From NCBI GenBank assembly GCA_902621345.1, contig CACNLV010000001.1, positions 248,001-312,000 of the forward strand: DNA of 64,000 nt. The letters are read 5' to 3'. How positions within the stretch are numbered: the first letter of the stretch is position 1; each line of letters starts with the position of its first letter. The DNA comes from an uncultured Pelagibacteraceae bacterium. Its GTDB lineage: Bacteria; Pseudomonadota; Alphaproteobacteria; Pelagibacterales; Pelagibacteraceae. The notes beneath the pieces are model-generated. The model was not told the DNA's origin. It was given only the letters and a program-made list of their open reading frames with translations, and ran no database searches. This document shows, piece after piece, positions 15,366-51,100 of this stretch. Both the position numbers and the translations under genes were made by a program.

Positions 15366-16841
15366 ATGACGATTAATTTTAAAGTACCAGAGATAAAAGA
15401 GTTACAACCAAGGCTTTTAGTAATGGGTATTGGTGGTGCAGGTGGAAATGCTATTAATGAAATGATTGATAATGGAATGCAAGGTGTTGAGTTTATTGCG
15501 GTTAATACCGATGCACAAGATTTAAAACATAGTAAAGCAAAATCAAAAGTCCAAATAGGTTTAAATTTGACAAAGGGCTTAGGAGCTGGTGCAAAACTTG
15601 ATATTGGTCAGGCTGCCGCAGATGAGTCTCTTAATGATATAGTAAATATTTTACAGGGTGCAAATATGGTTTTCATCGCCGCTGGTATGGGAGGTGGTAC
15701 AGGAACTGGTGCAGCCCACGTTATTGCAAGGGCCGCAAAAGAACTTAACATTTTAACAGTAGGAGTAGTAACACTACCTTTTTTATATGAAGGACCTTCA
15801 AGAATGAGAAGAGCTCAACAAGGATTAGAGGAACTTCGAAGACATGTGGATACTATTATAGTAATTCCAAATCAAAATTTATTTAAAATTGCCAATGAGC
15901 AGACCACATTCGAGGAGTCATTTAATTTGTCGAATAATGTTTTAATGCACGGGGTTCAAAGTATTACAGATCTAATGGTTAGACCAGGATTAATAAATCT
16001 TGATTTTGCCGATGTTGAGTCTGTAATGGCCTCGATGGGTAAAGCTATGATGGGAACAGGTGAAGCCGAAGGCGAAGGTAGAGCCATGAAAGCTGCAGAA
16101 ATGGCAATTAGCAATCCTTTAATTGATGATTATACCTTGAAAGGTGCAAAAGGCTTATTAGTAAATATTACTGGAGGTAAAGACCTTAAGCTTTTTGAAG
16201 TCGATGAAGCAGTTAATAAAGTAAGAGCCGAGGTTGACCCAGAGGCTGAGTTGATAATAGGAGCAATTACAGATCCAGAACTTGACGGAAAAATGAGAGT
16301 TTCAATCGTTGCAACTTCTTTAGATGGTCAACAACCCGAGACTAAATCTGTGATTAATATGGTGCACAGAATACAAAATAGAAATCCAGGGTATTCTGAT
16401 TTTGCAGCCAATGGTTTGACACAATCTTTTGTATTTAACGGAAATAATACAAATCCAGTTTCTCATGGTGCAAATGCTTTGAAACTTGAGAATGAGATAG
16501 TGACCAACGATTTACAAAATCAAACTAGCAATCAATCAGTAAATGATATGAATAATCAATATCATGAGGAGCTTTTAAAAAATCAAGAGATTAATGAGGT
16601 TGAAGATAAAAATTCTGAAAAAGATGAAATGTCTTTTCCAAAAGAAACATCAGAGTCTTTTGAGGAGACTGAAGTTAAATCTAATGACCTGAGAGAATTT
16701 GGAGTTGACACAAATGAGCCAGATTTATTTAGTTCTAGCGATAATAATTCAGATACTAATGATCTATCGAGTTCTTTGGACGAAGATAATGATGACGATG
16801 ATCTTGAAATTCCCGCATTTTTAAGAAGACAAAAAAATTAA
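15366..16841 (+). CDS. ftsZ: cell division protein FtsZ
   Basis: Tubulin-like GTPase that forms the division ring. Residues 1-320 hold the GTPase: [13 protein letters not shown], the tubulin signature GGGTGTGAA, and the T7 loop [12 protein letters not shown] long acidic, Asn/Ser-rich linker of about 150 residues follows, then the C-terminal peptide ([14 protein letters not shown]) that binds FtsA and other tethers. The start is preceded by a strong GAGGGGG ribosome-binding site 5 bases before ATG. The position is odd: it lies second, between mraZ and rsmH, not after ftsA. The length of 491 reflects the long linker. Confidence 0.98.
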
Positions 16842-19862: not shown

Positions 19863-22700
19863 ATGCTTCTTAAAGATTATATCCCAAGTGCTAAAAAAAA
19901 CTTAAAAACTTTTTTTTCTGGTATTGCCTTTAACAGTTCAAAAGTGAAAAGAGAGGATATTTTTTTTGCAATTAAAGGAAGTAATTATGACGGTAATAAA
20001 TTTATACCTACTGTAATAAAAAAAGGTTGTAGGATTATTGTTACTGATAAAAAAATCAAAAAAAAATACAATGGAGTCTTAATAATTTATACAAATAATG
20101 TGCGTAAATTATTAGCAGAAGTTTCATTTAAAATTTATAAAAATCTTCCGAAAAATTTGGTAGCAGTTACTGGAACAAATGGAAAATCTTCTGTTTCCGA
20201 TTTTTTTTATCAAATATTAAAGTTGAATAACAAAAAAGTTGCATCTATTGGAACGCTAGGTGTTAAGTCAGATAGCATTAATTTTGATTTATCCAACACT
20301 ACAATTGATCCAATTCAATTAGGAAGAATACTAAATAATCTTAAAGAAAAGGGAGTTGATAATGTGATTATGGAGGCTTCAAGCCATGGTCTTGAACAAA
20401 ATAGGCTTAATGGTCTTTTGTTTAATTTAGGAATATTTACTAATTTTTCACAAGATCATTTAGATTATCATAAAAATTTAGATAATTATTTAAAAGCAAA
20501 ACTCTATTTATTTAAAAATTTAATCAAAAAAAAAGGACATATAATTACTGACGAAAAAATACCAGAATTCATTAAAATCAAAAGAATTTCAGTAAATAAA
20601 AGTCTCAAGCTACATAAAATAAATAGCAAAGGTTCATTTAAAATTCTATCTCATCATTATCAAGATGAGACACAAATTATAAAAATTCAGCTTAAGAATT
20701 CAATTAAAACCATAAAACTGAATCTAATTGGAAAAATTCAATTAAATAATATATTGATGGCAATCATTGCAGCAAAAAAAAGTAATTTAAGTCTTGATAG
20801 AATTTTTCAAATTATCCCAAAAATTAAATCAGTTGAGGGAAGATTTGAAAAGATTGGTAAAATCAAAAATAATTCAAAAGTAATTCTAGATTATGCTCAT
20901 ACACCAGAAGCTTTAAAAACTTGTATATTAAATTTAAGAGAACAATTTAAAAATAAAAAAATTTCTTTACTATTTGGATGTGGTGGTAATAGGGATCAAA
21001 ACAAAAGATCTAAAATGGGTAAAATTGCATCTGATTACTCCGATAAAATCTATTTAACAGATGATAATCCAAGATATGAAAATCCAAAAAAAATTCGATC
21101 AGACATAAAAAAGGGTATAGAGAACACAAAAGTGCTTGAAATATCTGACAGGTCTAAGGCTATAGCTATAGCAATTAAAAATCTTAATTCAGGCGAAATT
21201 TTGCTTATTGCTGGAAAGGGTCATGAAAAAACACAAGATTTTGGTAATCAAAAAATTTATTTTTCAGATAAACAAGTTATTTTAAATTCGATAAAAAAGA
21301 AAAATTTAGATTTATCAAATAATTTAAAGTTTAATATTTTAAAAGAATTGTCAGGTAATCATAAATTAAAATCAATATCACTTTTTAAATTTGCCAGAAT
21401 TAACTCACAAGAAGTAAAGAAAAATGATATTTTTTTTGCAATTAAGGGAAGGAAAAACGATGGAAATAAATTTATAAATCAAGCATTCAAAAATAAAGCT
21501 TCAGTTGTAGTAGTAAATAGCATTCAAAAGAAATTTGAAATTAATAGACAAATAAAAGTAAAAGATACATTAAAATTCTTAACAGATACTGCCAAAATTT
21601 TTAGATCAAGTATAAACACAAAAATAATAGCAATAACTGGAAGTTGTGGAAAGACAACACTTAAAGAAATGTTAGGAAACTCTTTAAAAAAAATTTCTAA
21701 AGTTAGTATTTCACCAAAATCTTATAACAATAAATATGGAGTTCCTTTAAGTTTACTAAACTTAAAGGAAAATGATGACTTTGGTGTTTTAGAAGTTGGG
21801 ATGGATAAAAAGGGTGAAATAGACTACTTATCCAAAATAATTCGACCAGATGTTAGTGTAATAACAAATATTAATTTTGCTCATATAAAAAACTTTAAAA
21901 GTATTAAACATATTGCGTTAGCTAAATCTGAAATCATTCAAAATACTAACCCGGGTGGTTATGTAATATTGAATGCTGATGATAATTTTTTTTCTTTACA
22001 TAAAAAAATAGTCATTCAAAATAATCTTAAATTAGTATCTTTCGGAATAAAAAATAAACAATCGAATATGAAATTTTTAGGTATCAAAAAAAAAAAAGAT
22101 CATTTTCAACTCTGGATTCAAATTAATGGAGCAAAAAAATACTTTTTGGTTTCAAATAATTTTCATAATAATATTTATAATATTTTGGCTACATTAGCTA
22201 TTATGAGTATTTATAGAAATATTTTTCAATTAGATAAAGATTTTTTTTTCAAATTTAAGGTGCCACAAGGTAGGGGGGATATATCTAATATTAAGTTTCT
22301 TAAAAAAAATATAAATCTAGTTGATGAGAGTTACAATTCAAACCCCTTATCACTAAAATCTGCTGTCCTAAACTTTGACAAAATTAAAACAAAAAAAAAT
22401 AAAAAGTATCTTTTACTTGGAGATATGTTGGAACTCGGCAATCATTCAAAAAAACTTCATGAGTCAATTGCAGCTATAATAAACAAAACTAAGATTAATA
22501 AAGTTTTTATAAAAGGTCGTTATATGAAATATATGTTTGAAAAACTTACAGACTCTAAAAAAGGTCGAGTTTTACATAATAAATCTCAAATTATTGATTT
22601 GATTCGAAACGACTTAAATAATAATGATAGTCTTATGGTAAAGGCCTCAAATGCGACAGGTTTCAACAAGATAATAAAAGAGATTAAAGGAATTAATTAA
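19863..22700 (+). CDS. murE-murF: fused MurE-MurF: UDP-MurNAc-tripeptide synthetase and D-Ala-D-Ala adding enzyme
   Basis: One 945-residue frame contains two complete Mur ligases. MurE is residues 1 to about 478: ATP loop TGTNGKSS (103-110), ASSHGLEQNRL, the SVEGRFE segment, and DNPR at 401-404, the motif for meso-diaminopimelate. MurF is about 485-945: FAIKGRKNDGNKF, ATP loop TGSCGKTT (592-599), the SYNNKYGVPLSLL block and LLLGDMLELG. The linker is short. Elsewhere these are usually two adjacent genes. The fusion could channel substrate or simply reflect streamlining. It overlaps the start of mraY by 1 base. Confidence 0.95.
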   Translation: MLLKDYIPSAKKNLKTFFSGIAFNSSKVKREDIFFAIKGSNYDGNKFIPTVIKKGCRIIVTDKKIKKKYNGVLIIYTNNVRKLLAEVSFKIYKNLPKNLVAVTGTNGKSSVSDFFYQILKLNNKKVASIGTLGVKSDSINFDLSNTTIDPIQLGRILNNLKEKGVDNVIMEASSHGLEQNRLNGLLFNLGIFTNFSQDHLDYHKNLDNYLKAKLYLFKNLIKKKGHIITDEKIPEFIKIKRISVNKSLKLHKINSKGSFKILSHHYQDETQIIKIQLKNSIKTIKLNLIGKIQLNNILMAIIAAKKSNLSLDRIFQIIPKIKSVEGRFEKIGKIKNNSKVILDYAHTPEALKTCILNLREQFKNKKISLLFGCGGNRDQNKRSKMGKIASDYSDKIYLTDDNPRYENPKKIRSDIKKGIENTKVLEISDRSKAIAIAIKNLNSGEILLIAGKGHEKTQDFGNQKIYFSDKQVILNSIKKKNLDLSNNLKFNILKELSGNHKLKSISLFKFARINSQEVKKNDIFFAIKGRKNDGNKFINQAFKNKASVVVVNSIQKKFEINRQIKVKDTLKFLTDTAKIFRSSINTKIIAITGSCGKTTLKEMLGNSLKKISKVSISPKSYNNKYGVPLSLLNLKENDDFGVLEVGMDKKGEIDYLSKIIRPDVSVITNINFAHIKNFKSIKHIALAKSEIIQNTNPGGYVILNADDNFFSLHKKIVIQNNLKLVSFGIKNKQSNMKFLGIKKKKDHFQLWIQINGAKKYFLVSNNFHNNIYNILATLAIMSIYRNIFQLDKDFFFKFKVPQGRGDISNIKFLKKNINLVDESYNSNPLSLKSAVLNFDKIKTKKNKKYLLLGDMLELGNHSKKLHESIAAIINKTKINKVFIKGRYMKYMFEKLTDSKKGRVLHNKSQIIDLIRNDLNNNDSLMVKASNATGFNKIIKEIKGIN

Positions 22701-29538: not shown

Positions 29539-30453
29539 TTGAAAAAAAAAATATTAATAATTTCAGGAGGTATTTCAAAAGAGAGAATAATTAGTCTTGA
29601 TACTGGAAGGCAGGTGGCAAGAGAACTAAAAAAAAATGGTTATAAGGTAAAAACTACAGAACCAAACTACAAACTTTTTGAAACAATTAAATCTTTTAAA
29701 CCAAAAGTTATTTTTAATGCTTTACATGGTCAATATGGCGAGGATGGGTATATTCAGACAATCTTAGAAACCACCAGAATACCTTACACTCACTCAGGAG
29801 TTATCTCATCCGCTTTAGCCATGGACAAAGAGATATCTAAAAAAATTTTCAAAAAAAATAATATATTAACTCCAAAATATTTTTGTTACTCATTTAATTT
29901 ATCAAAATTTAAGTTACTAGAGAAAATTAATATCAAATTAAAATTTCCTGTTGTTATTAAACCAATAAATGAAGGGTCAAGTGTCAATGTTTTCATTTGC
30001 AATAAATCAAATATTTATAAAAAAATAAATTTATTAAAAGGATATGGAAAGATTATCATTGAAGAATTTATTCCTGGTCGTGAAATCCAAGCTGCGATAA
30101 TTGGATCAAATAAGCTAGGAGCCATTGAATTAAGGCCAAAGAGAAAATTTTACGATTATCAAGCCAAATATAATCCAAAAGCAAAAACCATGCATATAAT
30201 TCCTGTAGATCTCACTAAGAAAGAATATAATAAGTTAATGAATATAGCTTTTAAAGCTCACAAAATATTAAAGTGTGAAGGTGTTACAAGATCAGATTTT
30301 AAATTTTTTAAAAACAAGTTCTATCTTTTGGAAATTAATACTCAGCCTGGAATGACAAAACTTTCTCTAGTACCTGAAATAGCAGCATTTAAAAAGATAA
30401 GTTTTATTAAATTAATTGAACTACTCCTAAAAAATGCAATTAAGTTTAAGTAG
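29539..30453 (+). CDS. ddl: D-alanine--D-alanine ligase
   Basis: Makes D-Ala-D-Ala for the stem peptide, 304 residues from a TTG start 1 base after the murB stop. ATP-grasp landmarks: ALHGQYGEDGYIQTIL, PYTHSGVISSALAMDKEISK, FPVVIKPINEGSSVNVF, and the metal-binding end RSDFKF...YLLEINTQPGMTKLSLVPE. It overlaps ftsQ by 20 bases. Confidence 0.95.
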   Translation: MKKKILIISGGISKERIISLDTGRQVARELKKNGYKVKTTEPNYKLFETIKSFKPKVIFNALHGQYGEDGYIQTILETTRIPYTHSGVISSALAMDKEISKKIFKKNNILTPKYFCYSFNLSKFKLLEKINIKLKFPVVIKPINEGSSVNVFICNKSNIYKKINLLKGYGKIIIEEFIPGREIQAAIIGSNKLGAIELRPKRKFYDYQAKYNPKAKTMHIIPVDLTKKEYNKLMNIAFKAHKILKCEGVTRSDFKFFKNKFYLLEINTQPGMTKLSLVPEIAAFKKISFIKLIELLLKNAIKFK

Positions 30454-31108
30454 AAAAATACTATTTTATATTCTTTTAATTATTTTTTTTAGTACTCTTA
30501 ACAATAAGTATTTTTCAAAAATTGGATTAAAAGCCATAGATAAAATTGCAATAATAGGATTAGAAGAACAAGAAATGCAAGATTTATTAAATAATCTTAA
30601 ATCCCTTAATTCAAAGAATATTTTTTTTTTAAAAAAATTTGAGCTTATAAGAAAATTAGAAGCTAACAATTTAATTGAAAATTACACAGTATTTAAAAAA
30701 TATCCTTCAACAATAGAAATTAAAATAGAAAAAACAAAATTTTTAGCGAATGTGTTTAAAAATGGAAAATTCTATGTATTAGGTTCGAATGGTAAATTAA
30801 TTCAGTCCGATAAAAAAAAAGATAAGTTACCAAATATTTTTGGAGATTATGATAAAACTTCTTTTTTTAGCCTATTAAATTCTGTAAAAAAGTCGAATTT
30901 TAAATTTTCTAAAATTAAAAATTTATATTTTTTTAAGTCAGGCAGATGGGATATAGAAACTGACCAAAATGTAATTATTAAATTTCCAAAAGAAAATCTA
31001 AAAGATTTATTAAATTTATCATTAGGCATATTAAATAATAACGAGTTTAAAGATATTAAGGTTTTAGATCTTCGTCAAAATAACCAGGTTATAATAAATG
31101 GAAAATGA
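30434..31108 (+). CDS. ftsQ: cell division protein FtsQ
   Basis: A 224-residue bitopic division protein. A membrane helix at about residues 8-24 (ILFYILLIIFFSTLNNKYF) is followed by a POTRA-like domain (IAIIGLEEQEMQDLLNNLK...NLIENYTVFKKYPSTIEIKIEK) and a FtsQ beta domain ending in IKVLDLRQNNQVIING. Shorter than many FtsQ proteins but with both domains. Placement between ddl and the FtsA-like gene supports it. It overlaps that gene by 11 bases. Confidence 0.9.
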   Translation: MQLSLSRKILFYILLIIFFSTLNNKYFSKIGLKAIDKIAIIGLEEQEMQDLLNNLKSLNSKNIFFLKKFELIRKLEANNLIENYTVFKKYPSTIEIKIEKTKFLANVFKNGKFYVLGSNGKLIQSDKKKDKLPNIFGDYDKTSFFSLLNSVKKSNFKFSKIKNLYFFKSGRWDIETDQNVIIKFPKENLKDLLNLSLGILNNNEFKDIKVLDLRQNNQVIINGK

Positions 31109-31802
31109 TTTAAACTTTGAAGTCTTTTTATTTTTTAGTCCTAAAAAAATAATATTTTCTGTTAATCAAAAAACTGATTCTAAATTAATATTTAAAAATG
31201 AACTTATCTTTGAAAATAATTCTACTAATCTAAACTTTGAAAAATTAAATTTTTTTCTTAGTGAAAACGTATTTAAGGTTGAAAAAATTTTGGGAAACTT
31301 CATTGAAAAAATAAATGTAATAATAGAAACAAGAGATTTTTTAGATTTACAAATTTCCATGAAAAATAATGATCATAATGAATATGTTGACTCTAATGTA
31401 ATTTCATATTTAGTAAAAAGTGCCAAGTATCAGTGTGAAAAAACAATTCAAAATAATAGGATTATTCATATTTTAATTGACACCTATCTTATAGATAATG
31501 TCCATTATACAGAGTTACCACTTAATCAAAAATGTAAGAATTTTTCTTTGGATATAAGGTTTATTTGTTTGCCTGATGAATTAATAAAAAATATTGAAAA
31601 AATCCTTAAAAGATTTCAAATCTCGGTAAATAGAATACTAAGTGCAAGTTATATTGATAGATTTGTGGATGATAAGGAAATAAATTTTTTTAAAATGACT
31701 CGTAAAATTATTGATGGGCATAATAAAAATGAAGTTAAGTTAGTTAATAAAACAAGGAAAAATAAGGGTTTTTTTGAAAAATTTTTTGCTTTATTCAATT
31801 AA
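31098..31802 (+). CDS. reduced FtsA-like protein (domain 1C plus amphipathic tail, no ATPase body)
   Basis: A 234-residue protein in the exact slot of ftsA (usual length about 400-430). Residues 10-90 resemble the start of FtsA domain 1A and the first part of 1C. Residues 120-188 (IIHILIDTYLIDN..., then LDIRFICLPDELIKNIEKIL and ISVNRILSASYID) follow the FtsA 1C pattern in which HAIPQ-Y-VD is followed by a V-TA-HNL-KC-E-AGL helix and LE-LASA. It then ends, after a charged linker, in an aromatic amphipathic tail (GFFEKFFALFN) like the FtsA membrane anchor. Domains 2A, 2B and the ATP-binding DIGGGTTD motif are absent, with no remnant before lpxC. I infer a minimal FtsZ tether. The homology is remote and read by eye. 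Confidence 0.65.
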   Translation: MENDLNFEVFLFFSPKKIIFSVNQKTDSKLIFKNELIFENNSTNLNFEKLNFFLSENVFKVEKILGNFIEKINVIIETRDFLDLQISMKNNDHNEYVDSNVISYLVKSAKYQCEKTIQNNRIIHILIDTYLIDNVHYTELPLNQKCKNFSLDIRFICLPDELIKNIEKILKRFQISVNRILSASYIDRFVDDKEINFFKMTRKIIDGHNKNEVKLVNKTRKNKGFFEKFFALFN

Positions 31803-31864: not shown

Positions 31865-32785
31865 GTGAAGTTATTAACCCAAAAAACTATCAAAAAAACC
31901 GTAAGTTTTCGTGGAATAGGTTTACACAGTGGAAAAATTACAAATATTTCTTTAAAACCGTCTGAACCAAACTCAGGAATAATTTTTAAAAGAACTGACT
32001 TAAAAATAAATAATTTGATTTTTCCCAATTTTTCTAATGTCAATAATACTGTTCTCAATACCACAATTTCTAATGAATACGGTGTTAAAATTTCTACCAT
32101 AGAACATTTGATGGGAGCTTTGTTTGGTTTGGGTGTAGATAATGTTTTAATAGAAATTGATAATGAAGAAGTACCAATTTTAGATGGCTCAGCGAAAGAA
32201 TTTATAGAAAAGATTTTAATTTCTGGTTTAAAGAAAAGTGAAGCACCCATCAAAATTATTAAGATTAATAAAAAAGTAATTTATAGAGAAAATGAAAAGT
32301 TTATATCCATTGAGCCATCAAAATTAAGTTTAGATATTGATTTTCAACTAAGATATCAAAATCCCGTCATAGGAAATCAGAGAAATAAAATTAATATTTA
32401 TGAAGATGATTTAACTGATATTTTTAATTCGAGAACTTTTTGTTTGTATGAAGACGTAGAAAAAATTAGACAAAACGGTCTTGCAAAAGGTGGCAGTTTA
32501 AATAATGCTATTGTTGTTAAAGATGACAGTGTCTTAAATAAAGATGGCCTAAGAAACTCATTAGAATTTGTCAATCATAAGATCCTTGATTGTTTAGGAG
32601 ACTTATATACATCTGGTTACAGAATGGTAGCTAGCATAACATGTTCTCAGGGTGGACATTTTATGACCAATCAACTTTTAAAAAAAGTATTTGAAAATAA
32701 AGAAAATTTTTCAATAATCGAAATTCAAGAAAGAAATCTTCCTCATTCCTTGATAAATAAAAGATTATTAAAATCTATAGCGTAA
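31865..32785 (+). CDS. lpxC: UDP-3-O-acyl-N-acetylglucosamine deacetylase
   Basis: Zinc deacetylase committing to lipid A synthesis, 306 residues from GTG. Motifs: KKTVSFRGIGLHSGKI at the N terminus, TIEHLMGALFGLGVDN (zinc His), LDGSAKEFI, FVNHKILDCLGDLY (zinc His and Asp) and QGGHFMTNQL (catalytic His). It lies at the end of the dcw cluster as in many proteobacteria. A 62-base gap separates it from the FtsA-like gene. Confidence 0.96.
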   Translation: MKLLTQKTIKKTVSFRGIGLHSGKITNISLKPSEPNSGIIFKRTDLKINNLIFPNFSNVNNTVLNTTISNEYGVKISTIEHLMGALFGLGVDNVLIEIDNEEVPILDGSAKEFIEKILISGLKKSEAPIKIIKINKKVIYRENEKFISIEPSKLSLDIDFQLRYQNPVIGNQRNKINIYEDDLTDIFNSRTFCLYEDVEKIRQNGLAKGGSLNNAIVVKDDSVLNKDGLRNSLEFVNHKILDCLGDLYTSGYRMVASITCSQGGHFMTNQLLKKVFENKENFSIIEIQERNLPHSLINKRLLKSIA

Positions 32786-50323: not shown

Positions 50324-51100
50324 ATGAAAAAACTTAAACTGTTTGCTCTAGCAGCTGTTGCCCTAACAGGTTTAACAGGAATTGCTAATGCAGCAGACGC
50401 AACGATGTTAGCTCAGGATGACTTTGTTGGAATATCTTTTTGGATAATTTCAATGGGTATGTTAGCGGCTACTGCTTTCTTCTTCATGGAGAGAGGTACT
50501 GTTAACCCTGCGTGGAAAACATCAGTAACTGTTGCTGGTCTTGTAACTGGTATTGCTTTCATTCACTACATGTACATGAGAGAAGTATGGGTTGCTACAG
50601 GTGACTCACCAACAGTATATAGATATATTGACTGGTTAATTACTGTACCATTACAGATGGTAGAATTTTATTTAATTCTAGTAGCTGTAAGAAAAGCAAA
50701 CTCTGGAATGTTCTGGAGATTGTTAATCGGTTCACTAGTAATGTTAATCGGTGGATACTTAGGAGAAGCTGGATATATCAATGCTACACTTGGTTTCATT
50801 ATCGGTATGGCAGGTTGGGTATACATTCTTTATGAAGTATTCTCAGGTGAAGCAGGTAAAGCTGCTGCTAAGAGCGGAAACAAAGCTCTTGTAACTGCGT
50901 TCGGTGCAATGAGAATGATTGTAACTGTAGGTTGGGCAATTTATCCATTAGGTTATGTATTTGGTTACCTAACTGGTGGAGTAGATGCTGACACATTAAA
51001 CGTAGTTTACAACTTAGCTGACTTCATTAACAAAATTGCATTTGGTCTAGTAATCTGGGCTGCTGCAATGAGTTCTGGAGCTGGCGCAAGAGCAAGATAA
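50324..51100 (+). CDS. proteorhodopsin, light-driven proton pump, predicted blue-absorbing
   Basis: A 258-residue, seven-helix retinal protein with a cleavable signal peptide (about 1-23). The retinal Schiff-base Lys is K237 (DFINKIAF). Proton acceptor D103, T107 and donor E114 (YRYIDWLITVPLQMVEFYL) correspond to D97/T101/E108 of green proteorhodopsin, so it is a DTE-type outward proton pump; H81 matches His75. The tuning position (L105 in green types) is Gln111, which predicts blue absorption. A strong AGGGAG site lies 6 bases before ATG, and a terminator follows. No retinal or carotenoid synthesis genes are in the window. Confidence 0.97.
   Translation: MKKLKLFALAAVALTGLTGIANAADATMLAQDDFVGISFWIISMGMLAATAFFFMERGTVNPAWKTSVTVAGLVTGIAFIHYMYMREVWVATGDSPTVYRYIDWLITVPLQMVEFYLILVAVRKANSGMFWRLLIGSLVMLIGGYLGEAGYINATLGFIIGMAGWVYILYEVFSGEAGKAAAKSGNKALVTAFGAMRMIVTVGWAIYPLGYVFGYLTGGVDADTLNVVYNLADFINKIAFGLVIWAAAMSSGAGARAR

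Follow-up and report, generated by a model that had tools for sequence, protein, structure and literature searches.

A short FtsA without domain 2 in one lineage of SAR11 bacteria

Introduction

Must FtsA polymerise and bind ATP to serve the divisome, and what parts of its surface are indispensable? This question is raised by a 64,000-nucleotide stretch of DNA from an uncultured Pelagibacteraceae bacterium (hereafter the window), in which the usual position of ftsA is occupied by a gene encoding only 234 residues. According to passages of PMC7613929, FtsA of E. coli and Vibrio forms longitudinal contacts through subdomains IIA and IIB and lateral contacts through IC, and the cytoplasmic tail of FtsN binds in the cleft between IA and IC. 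According to PMC9098913, FtsA is believed to be inactive while polymerised and to become active as a monomer. In the literature covered, which mostly excluded subscription papers, no description was found of an FtsA that lacks domain 2, or of SAR11 FtsA. Similarly, a shortened FtsA is not mentioned in the Pelagibacter and SAR11 passages of PMC2877005, PMC10580974, and PMC10906006, or in the FtsA passages of the review PMC10591338. The window and its relatives were compared at the level of sequence, predicted structure, gene neighbourhood, and phylogeny.

A short gene in the ftsA position

The gene (31098..31802, + strand) starts with ATG and is intact. Its start is overlapped by ftsQ (30434..31108, +; Pfam POTRA_1 4e-8, FtsQ_DivIB_C 1e-7), and its stop is separated by 62 bases from lpxC (31865..32785, +; Pfam E 1e-92). 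The initial annotation had placed a 234-residue product in the ftsA slot between ftsQ and lpxC, and the intact reading frame and the Pfam-checked flanks agree with this. The cluster as a whole runs mraZ, ftsZ (15366..16841, +; Pfam-checked), mraW, ftsI, murE-murF (one frame), mraY, murD, ftsW, murG, murC, murB, ddl, ftsQ, the 234-residue gene, lpxC, bamD, and ligA, where ftsQ, lpxC, ftsZ, and ddl are named by Pfam and the others are read from translations. The order ftsQ-[gene]-lpxC is common to the window and its relatives, whether the intervening gene is short or full-length. Two further features of the window were noted from reading of the translations: murE and murF are seemingly fused into a single 945-residue frame with two Mur-ligase halves (19863-22700), and a proteorhodopsin-like gene of 258 aa is located at 50324-51100.

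Judged by sequence comparison, the homology of the window protein to FtsA is weak from the single sequence but specific, and it is strong at the family level. The NCBIfam model TIGR01174 (ftsA) matches residues 60-185 at E 4e-6 (model positions 59-182 of 371). The score falls short of the curated equivalog cut-off (26.2 vs 175.85 bits), as is also the case for most full-length SAR11 FtsAs, with 9 of 148 genomes above it. Pfam SHS2_FTSA is matched at residues 94-156 with E 0.022 and 15.5 bits, against a gathering score of 25.4. Of 68 short proteins, 54 reach E 0.01 or better with TIGR01174, and just 23 reach E 0.1 or better with SHS2_FTSA. Profile comparison with hhalign aligns residues 2-188 with three full-length FtsAs of the same genus at E 1e-37, and a comparison with seven full-length FtsAs from other genera of the family gives E 1e-13. 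Among named records that carry this gene, the nearest are from uncultured Pelagibacteraceae, the first seven being 72-78% identical to the window protein, in agreement with its assignment to SAR11. The 234-residue protein is an FtsA ortholog by descent that lacks 2A/2B, the ATP motifs, and the FtsZ site on 2B.

A second, full-length FtsA in the same genome (97.3% complete) was rejected after a genome-wide search with TIGR01174, which returned this gene and two partial matches in frames of 366 aa and 648 aa (MreB-like and DnaK-like, respectively, by reading). A full-length copy elsewhere, which would have undone the initial proposal, was thus found neither by this search nor by the domain-2 profile described below.

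Domain anatomy and ATP motifs

An AlphaFold2 model of the short FtsA, built from an alignment of 68 sequences (the window protein and 67 of 80 loci fetched from other contigs), has a mean pLDDT of 87.1 and a pTM of 0.82. In a Foldseek search with this model the top match is FtsA 7q6i (E 8e-13) and the first 19 entries are FtsA chains, three of them from 3wt0, which is titled 'Cell Division Protein' and was taken here to be FtsA. VIA-align also places 3wt0 first (Z 14.7, 194 residues at 4.6 A), and its first 11 entries are all FtsA, with Z 11.9-14.7 over 191-204 residues. These VIA-align matches begin at model residues 2-6 and stop at 204-211, corresponding to the end part of the FtsA chains; the structural alignment with 1e4g, for instance, reaches FtsA residue 392. 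Other actin-fold proteins (kinases, NTPDases) score lower than FtsA. The 1C/SHS2 fold that had been predicted for this protein is thus found in the AlphaFold2 model and in its FtsA fold matches, with the Pfam match below its cut-off.

In the model, the first part of subdomain 1A (residues 1-80; 31098..31337, +) comprises three strands, a helix at 47-65, and a strand at 71-76, and the phosphate-1 motif is gone from it. Subdomain 1C/SHS2 follows (31338..31613, +), supported by Pfam, the model, and the FtsA fold matches. Its extent is about residues 81-172, with limits of our own choosing on the model, and is thus narrower than the residues 60-188 first proposed. A strand (176-182) and helix (183-187) of 1A come after 1C in the model (residues 173-190; 31614..31667, +), and they align with the equivalent part of full-length relatives. 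Beyond a junction at about residues 191-195 (31668..31682, +), located by same-genus alignment at the site of the missing 2A and 2B, the protein resumes with the last 1A helix and a GxNxxEV turn (residues 196-214; 31683..31739, +), as judged by alignment with the full-length proteins of G094, G011, and G024 and by structural alignment; helix 197-205 is the part aligned with the last 1A helix of the full-length relatives.

The short protein therefore aligns through 1C in full, with the opening portion of 1A before it and the next strand and helix after it, and then jumps to the last helix, turn, and tail. The missing segment extends from just before the DIG-type phosphate-2 strand to after the GxG[SA] loop, corresponding to 2A with 2B enclosed within it, and the full-length FtsAs of the genus are longer by 134-157 residues. 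Against the distant genera, hhalign makes no such jump and carries the alignment on into the start of domain 2, so that residues 196-214 are assigned from the same-genus and structural alignments. The short FtsA apparently keeps the whole of domain 1 (1A and 1C), which is one lobe of the actin-like fold, together with the tail; no complete two-domain fold with 2A and 2B can be recognised in its sequence. Of the arrangement suggested initially (the beginning of 1A, then 1C and the tail), 1C and the tail stand, and according to the alignment and model 1A is apparently whole, last helix included. The loss of 2A and 2B is borne out by the alignment with full-length relatives and by the domain-2 profile, which finds nothing in the genome.

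The phosphate-1, phosphate-2, and adenosine-like motifs were scored with simple self-made patterns, which are a rough measure. None of the three was found in any of the 51 short proteins, the window protein included, in agreement with the earlier statement that it has no DIGGGTTD-like motif. Among the 23 full-length proteins of the window's genus (g1), the respective motifs are present in 22, 21, and 23. Of seven full-length proteins from genera g2-g4, the same motifs are recognised in 3, 7, and 7; as four of these seven miss the phosphate-1 pattern, motif loss judged by pattern alone is to be read as approximate. In the neighbouring genera g5 and g6, all three motifs are absent from 11 of 11 FtsAs that keep full length (loci L120-L123, L125, L126, L128-L131, and L133). 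If the patterns are fair, ATP motifs would have been lost at least twice in the family, in one case together with domain 2 and in the other without it, and g5 and g6 may have come to an ATP-free FtsA by another path.

The protein ends in an aromatic C-terminal tail, a putative membrane-targeting helix that ends KGFFEKFFALFN (31755..31799, +; within residues 220-234). The tail pattern is present in 51 of 51 short proteins and, in slightly loosened form, in 22 of 23 full-length congeners, and by this pattern and by alignment the tails are homologous. AlphaFold2 places a helix at 225-232 with low pLDDT. The hydrophobic moment is borderline, with a median of 0.057 of shuffles as high, and is 0.44 in the window protein vs a short-form median of 0.52. 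Membrane binding by the tail is thus putative and rests on conservation and homology.

Distribution of short and full-length FtsA

The slot before lpxC was read in 101 loci, namely the window and the cluster from 100 relatives. Two genomes of the same family with frames at contig starts (G038 and G052) and 41 genomes from the order's second family lie outside this survey, and the slot was unreadable in four of the 87 same-genus genomes (G046, G132, G134, and G144). Slot lengths are bimodal: 51 genes are intact and short (220-244 aa), 41 are full-length (368-410 aa), and nine are cut or frameshifted. Of these nine, two are frameshifted and seven are cut by contig ends, and the contig-end fragments (G128, G064, G115, G103, G030, G022, and G110) were left out of the counts. 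All 51 short genes belong to the window's genus, in which 23 of 83 slots are nonetheless full-length. The 18 slots read in other genera of the family all hold a full-length gene. The order's second family has FtsA frames of 397-403 aa in 36 of 41 genomes, with none shown in the other five. The initial annotation spoke of SAR11 at large, which is too wide: 23 of 83 same-genus slots and 18 of 18 in other genera hold a full-length gene, most of the former with ATP-like motifs.

Intact short forms are separated from lpxC by 59-69 bases and full-length genes by a similar distance, so that both kinds of gene share one and the same end. A further scan of contigs yielded 80 loci, 77 of them intact at 230-244 aa, with two of the other three cut by contig ends; as the scan was keyed to the tail and the window protein and overlaps the survey, it is uninformative on the frequency of full-length genes. 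A domain-2 profile built for the genus matched in 0 of 48 genomes with an intact short gene, the window's own included. It was positive in five of five genomes whose full-length gene is complete or cut by a contig end, four of these genomes having contributed rows to the profile, and negative also in two frameshifted and two unread genomes.

These observations bear on whether the short gene could be an error of assembly or annotation, or part of a split gene whose domain 2 lies at another locus. The genomes are mostly draft, and seven slots are indeed cut by contig ends. However, intact short forms are present in the single-contig genomes G003, G005, G013, and G020, the spacing to lpxC is steady in intact short forms, and the profile found no domain 2 in the short-form genomes, so that this explanation carries almost no probability. 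A separately encoded domain 2 was rejected on the 0 of 48 profile matches. An artefact of contig ends was rejected too; the short fragments that do end there were left out of the counts. A recent or strain-specific truncation was likewise rejected, on the 51 short slots, the 77 of 80 intact loci, and purifying selection. The short FtsA is neither artefact nor recent.

In a class-wide search, SHS2_FTSA was matched in 139 of 153 genomes, with frames of at least 398 aa in all but two; the frame of G277 begins at a contig start, and that of G283 continues, for its second half, on a different contig. The window's own genome is itself missed by this search, and equally diverged short forms could be missed in the same way. 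Among 13 other genomes with no match, seven have a long FtsA-like frame and six are without FtsA by TIGR01174. Short FtsAs may therefore exist elsewhere in the class.

Selection and origin

Over 13 close pairs, dN/dS of the short ftsA is 0.14-0.30, which is similar to ftsQ (0.10-0.46) and mostly above ftsZ or lpxC (0.02-0.19). The gene evolves fast but under purifying selection, and this, along with the many intact short relatives, argues against a recent truncation, which the initial annotation had named as a possible refutation. The short gene could alternatively be a decaying vestige whose former job has been dropped. Its fast evolution would fit such decay, the window protein being 76% identical to that of the closest survey genome and at most 46% to the others (except one 27-residue match), as would the frameshifts in G026, G139, and L183. 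Yet the dN/dS values, the 77 of 80 fetched loci that are intact (some from genomes also in the survey), and the invariant residues and tail make decay very unlikely. As for the frameshifted copies themselves (L092 in G026, L060 in G139, and L183), the shifts in G026 and G139 lie near A runs, and the genome of G026 consists of one contig with a completeness rating of 100%. The three frameshifts may reflect sequencing error, slippage, or real decay.

Whether domain 2 was lost once or repeatedly was addressed with trees. A tree of 12 flanking proteins with 86 rows (46 short, 38 full, and 2 frameshifted; 15 of the 101 loci, with fewer than five genes present, were left out) needs three changes between short and full. 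It contains three maximal groups without a full-length row, of 42 (including the two frameshifted), 2, and 4 rows. A 38-row subset also needs three changes, two of them forced by well supported branches. One reading is that the deletion happened a single time and was then carried through the genus by recombination, as opposed to two or three separate losses of domain 2. A single short clade is not rejected by the ftsA gene tree (AU p 0.42; 47 of 92 intact proteins, 227 shared columns), and one short/full change is seen in 10% of 200 ftsA bootstrap trees. Additionally, the junction is at about the same place in the aligned short forms, and a GxNxxEV-like turn is shared by 45 of 51 short forms (loose pattern) and the full-length G094 group. 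In contrast, a grouping of all short forms in one clade is rejected by the flanking genes (AU p 1e-91; 37 of the 86 rows, hand-picked after the first tree was seen, and a quick tree), ftsA would have to be replaced without its close neighbours, and a shared junction is also expected from the domain limits. A single origin is thus a tentative alternative, and the balance leans towards repeated loss at the domain limit over one loss followed by recombination.

FtsZ and candidate division partners

The C-terminal peptide of FtsZ binds domain 2B of FtsA, and has other binders besides FtsA. PDB 4a2a is, by its title, FtsA with an FtsZ 336-351 peptide. In the window this peptide is EIPAFLRRQ (16806..16832, +), and EIPAFLR[RK]Q is present in 78 of 78 FtsZ sequences read (41 from short-form, 35 from full-form, and 2 from unclassified genomes), so that its conservation, claimed at first for the window, extends unchanged to all of these genomes.

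Other proteins were sought that might differ between short-form and full-form genomes. SepF was found in 0 of 15 genomes, and ZapA in 45 of 50; ZapA is not known as a membrane anchor. Neither ZapA nor SepF tracks the short form or explains the difference between short and full. It is possible, although unlikely, that the short FtsA still tethers FtsZ, with a remodelled 1A-1C surface, perhaps the face laid bare where domain 2 is lost, binding the peptide. The unchanged peptide in 41 of 41 short-form genomes, the lack of SepF in the 15 genomes tested, and the retained C-terminal tail are consistent with this, but the usual peptide site on 2B is gone and other binders of the peptide are known.

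A SPOR domain was found in 18 of 50 genomes, and 8 of the 18 SPOR loci were read properly. In the window's own genome (G000), no canonical SPOR FtsN was found, and the single SPOR match is a lipoprotein by reading. This lipoprotein (L221, C1:594408) has an RlpA-like layout, and similar frames occur in 7 of 17 other SPOR loci. The interval between argS and nagZ, the position of ftsN in other Alphaproteobacteria, contains a frame of 81-87 residues in 19 of 19 argS loci (L250:3132-3392 in the own genome). The small protein has a very short N-terminus, starting M[LIF]KE[ILFV]KY within the genus, one hydrophobic stretch, and [FY]WxL[LI] near its end. No SPOR domain was found in it, and in the own-genome copy no Pfam family exceeds its cut-off. 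The small protein is a candidate partner and a possible minimal FtsN.

Discussion

The favoured reading is that the ftsA ortholog of this SAR11 lineage has lost its entire domain 2 (2A and 2B) in frame, leaving domain 1 (1A and 1C) and the C-terminal tail. The comparisons above show the anatomy (through alignment and a predicted model), the conservation, the lack of a domain-2 match in the genomes searched, and the loss of ATP motifs; the role that follows is proposed. The tail would seat the short FtsA on the membrane, where the 1A-1C unit would bring in the septal wall synthesis complex or pass a signal to it. With 2A and 2B gone there would be no actin-like longitudinal contact, no closed ATP pocket, and no binding of the FtsZ peptide in the known mode. 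The surfaces that make lateral contacts and receive a partner's tail are kept, and those for polymerising, ATP, and FtsZ are lost. On the simplest reading, the protein would always be monomeric, or at most paired through 1C, and act as a recruiter without ATP control. The usual ligand of the 1A-1C cleft, FtsN, is uncertain here because the only SPOR match in the own genome is a lipoprotein. The unchanged C-terminal peptide of FtsZ would be held by another partner.

That domain-2 loss has left an ATP-free, non-polymerising 1A-1C membrane recruiter, with FtsZ tethering moved elsewhere, is what we infer as the probable state of this system. It is a more guarded suggestion, somewhat short of an even chance, that tethering has passed to another protein that uses the peptide, and that a free-living bacterium can divide without an FtsA that polymerises and switches with ATP.

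The SAR11 short ftsA is a natural domain deletion under selection, found beside congeners with full-length FtsA, and for this reason it allows a direct test of whether FtsA must polymerise and bind ATP. The essential signalling function may reside in the 1A-1C unit by itself, from which FtsZ tethering would be separable. The case also bears on how very small and abundant free-living cells divide.

In comparison to canonical FtsA (T. maritima 1e4f/1e4g, S. aureus 3wqt/3wqu, E. coli 7q6d, and V. maritimus 7q6f/7q6i), the short form shares the dcw position and the 1A and 1C fold. Unlike it, the short form has no 2A, 2B, or ATP motifs, and has 234 residues against the 368-410 of full-length SAR11 FtsA, whose aromatic C-terminal tail is similar. 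Full-length FtsAs of the same genus (e.g. G094, G011, and G024, 368-369 aa) are 30% identical to it and share the last helix and tail, but they retain 2A/2B and the DxG-type and GxG[SA] motifs, which the short form does not.

PilM has FtsA-like 1A and 1C and is a structural match to the short FtsA, and passages of PMC7613929 describe its cleft as the binding site for the cytoplasmic tail of PilN, which is a bitopic partner. It differs in the length of the matched chains (333-357 residues), in the bound nucleotide that the titles of several entries mention, and in belonging to type IV pili. The cytoplasmic domain of GspL/EpsL (4pht, 1w97, and 1yf5; Z 10.6-11.1) is an actin-like inner-membrane component of 224-238 residues, and is nearer to the short FtsA in size than FtsA is. 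This domain is a reduced form and is not known to have ATPase activity. However, it belongs to type II secretion, lies in another gene context, and is 10-12% identical to the short FtsA. Membership of either the PilM or the GspL family was rejected, since the gene sits in the mur/fts cluster and adjoins lpxC in relatives, with no pilus or type II secretion context. Nearest in kind to the short FtsA are PilM and the cytoplasmic domain of GspL/EpsL, which are FtsA-like adaptors at membranes.
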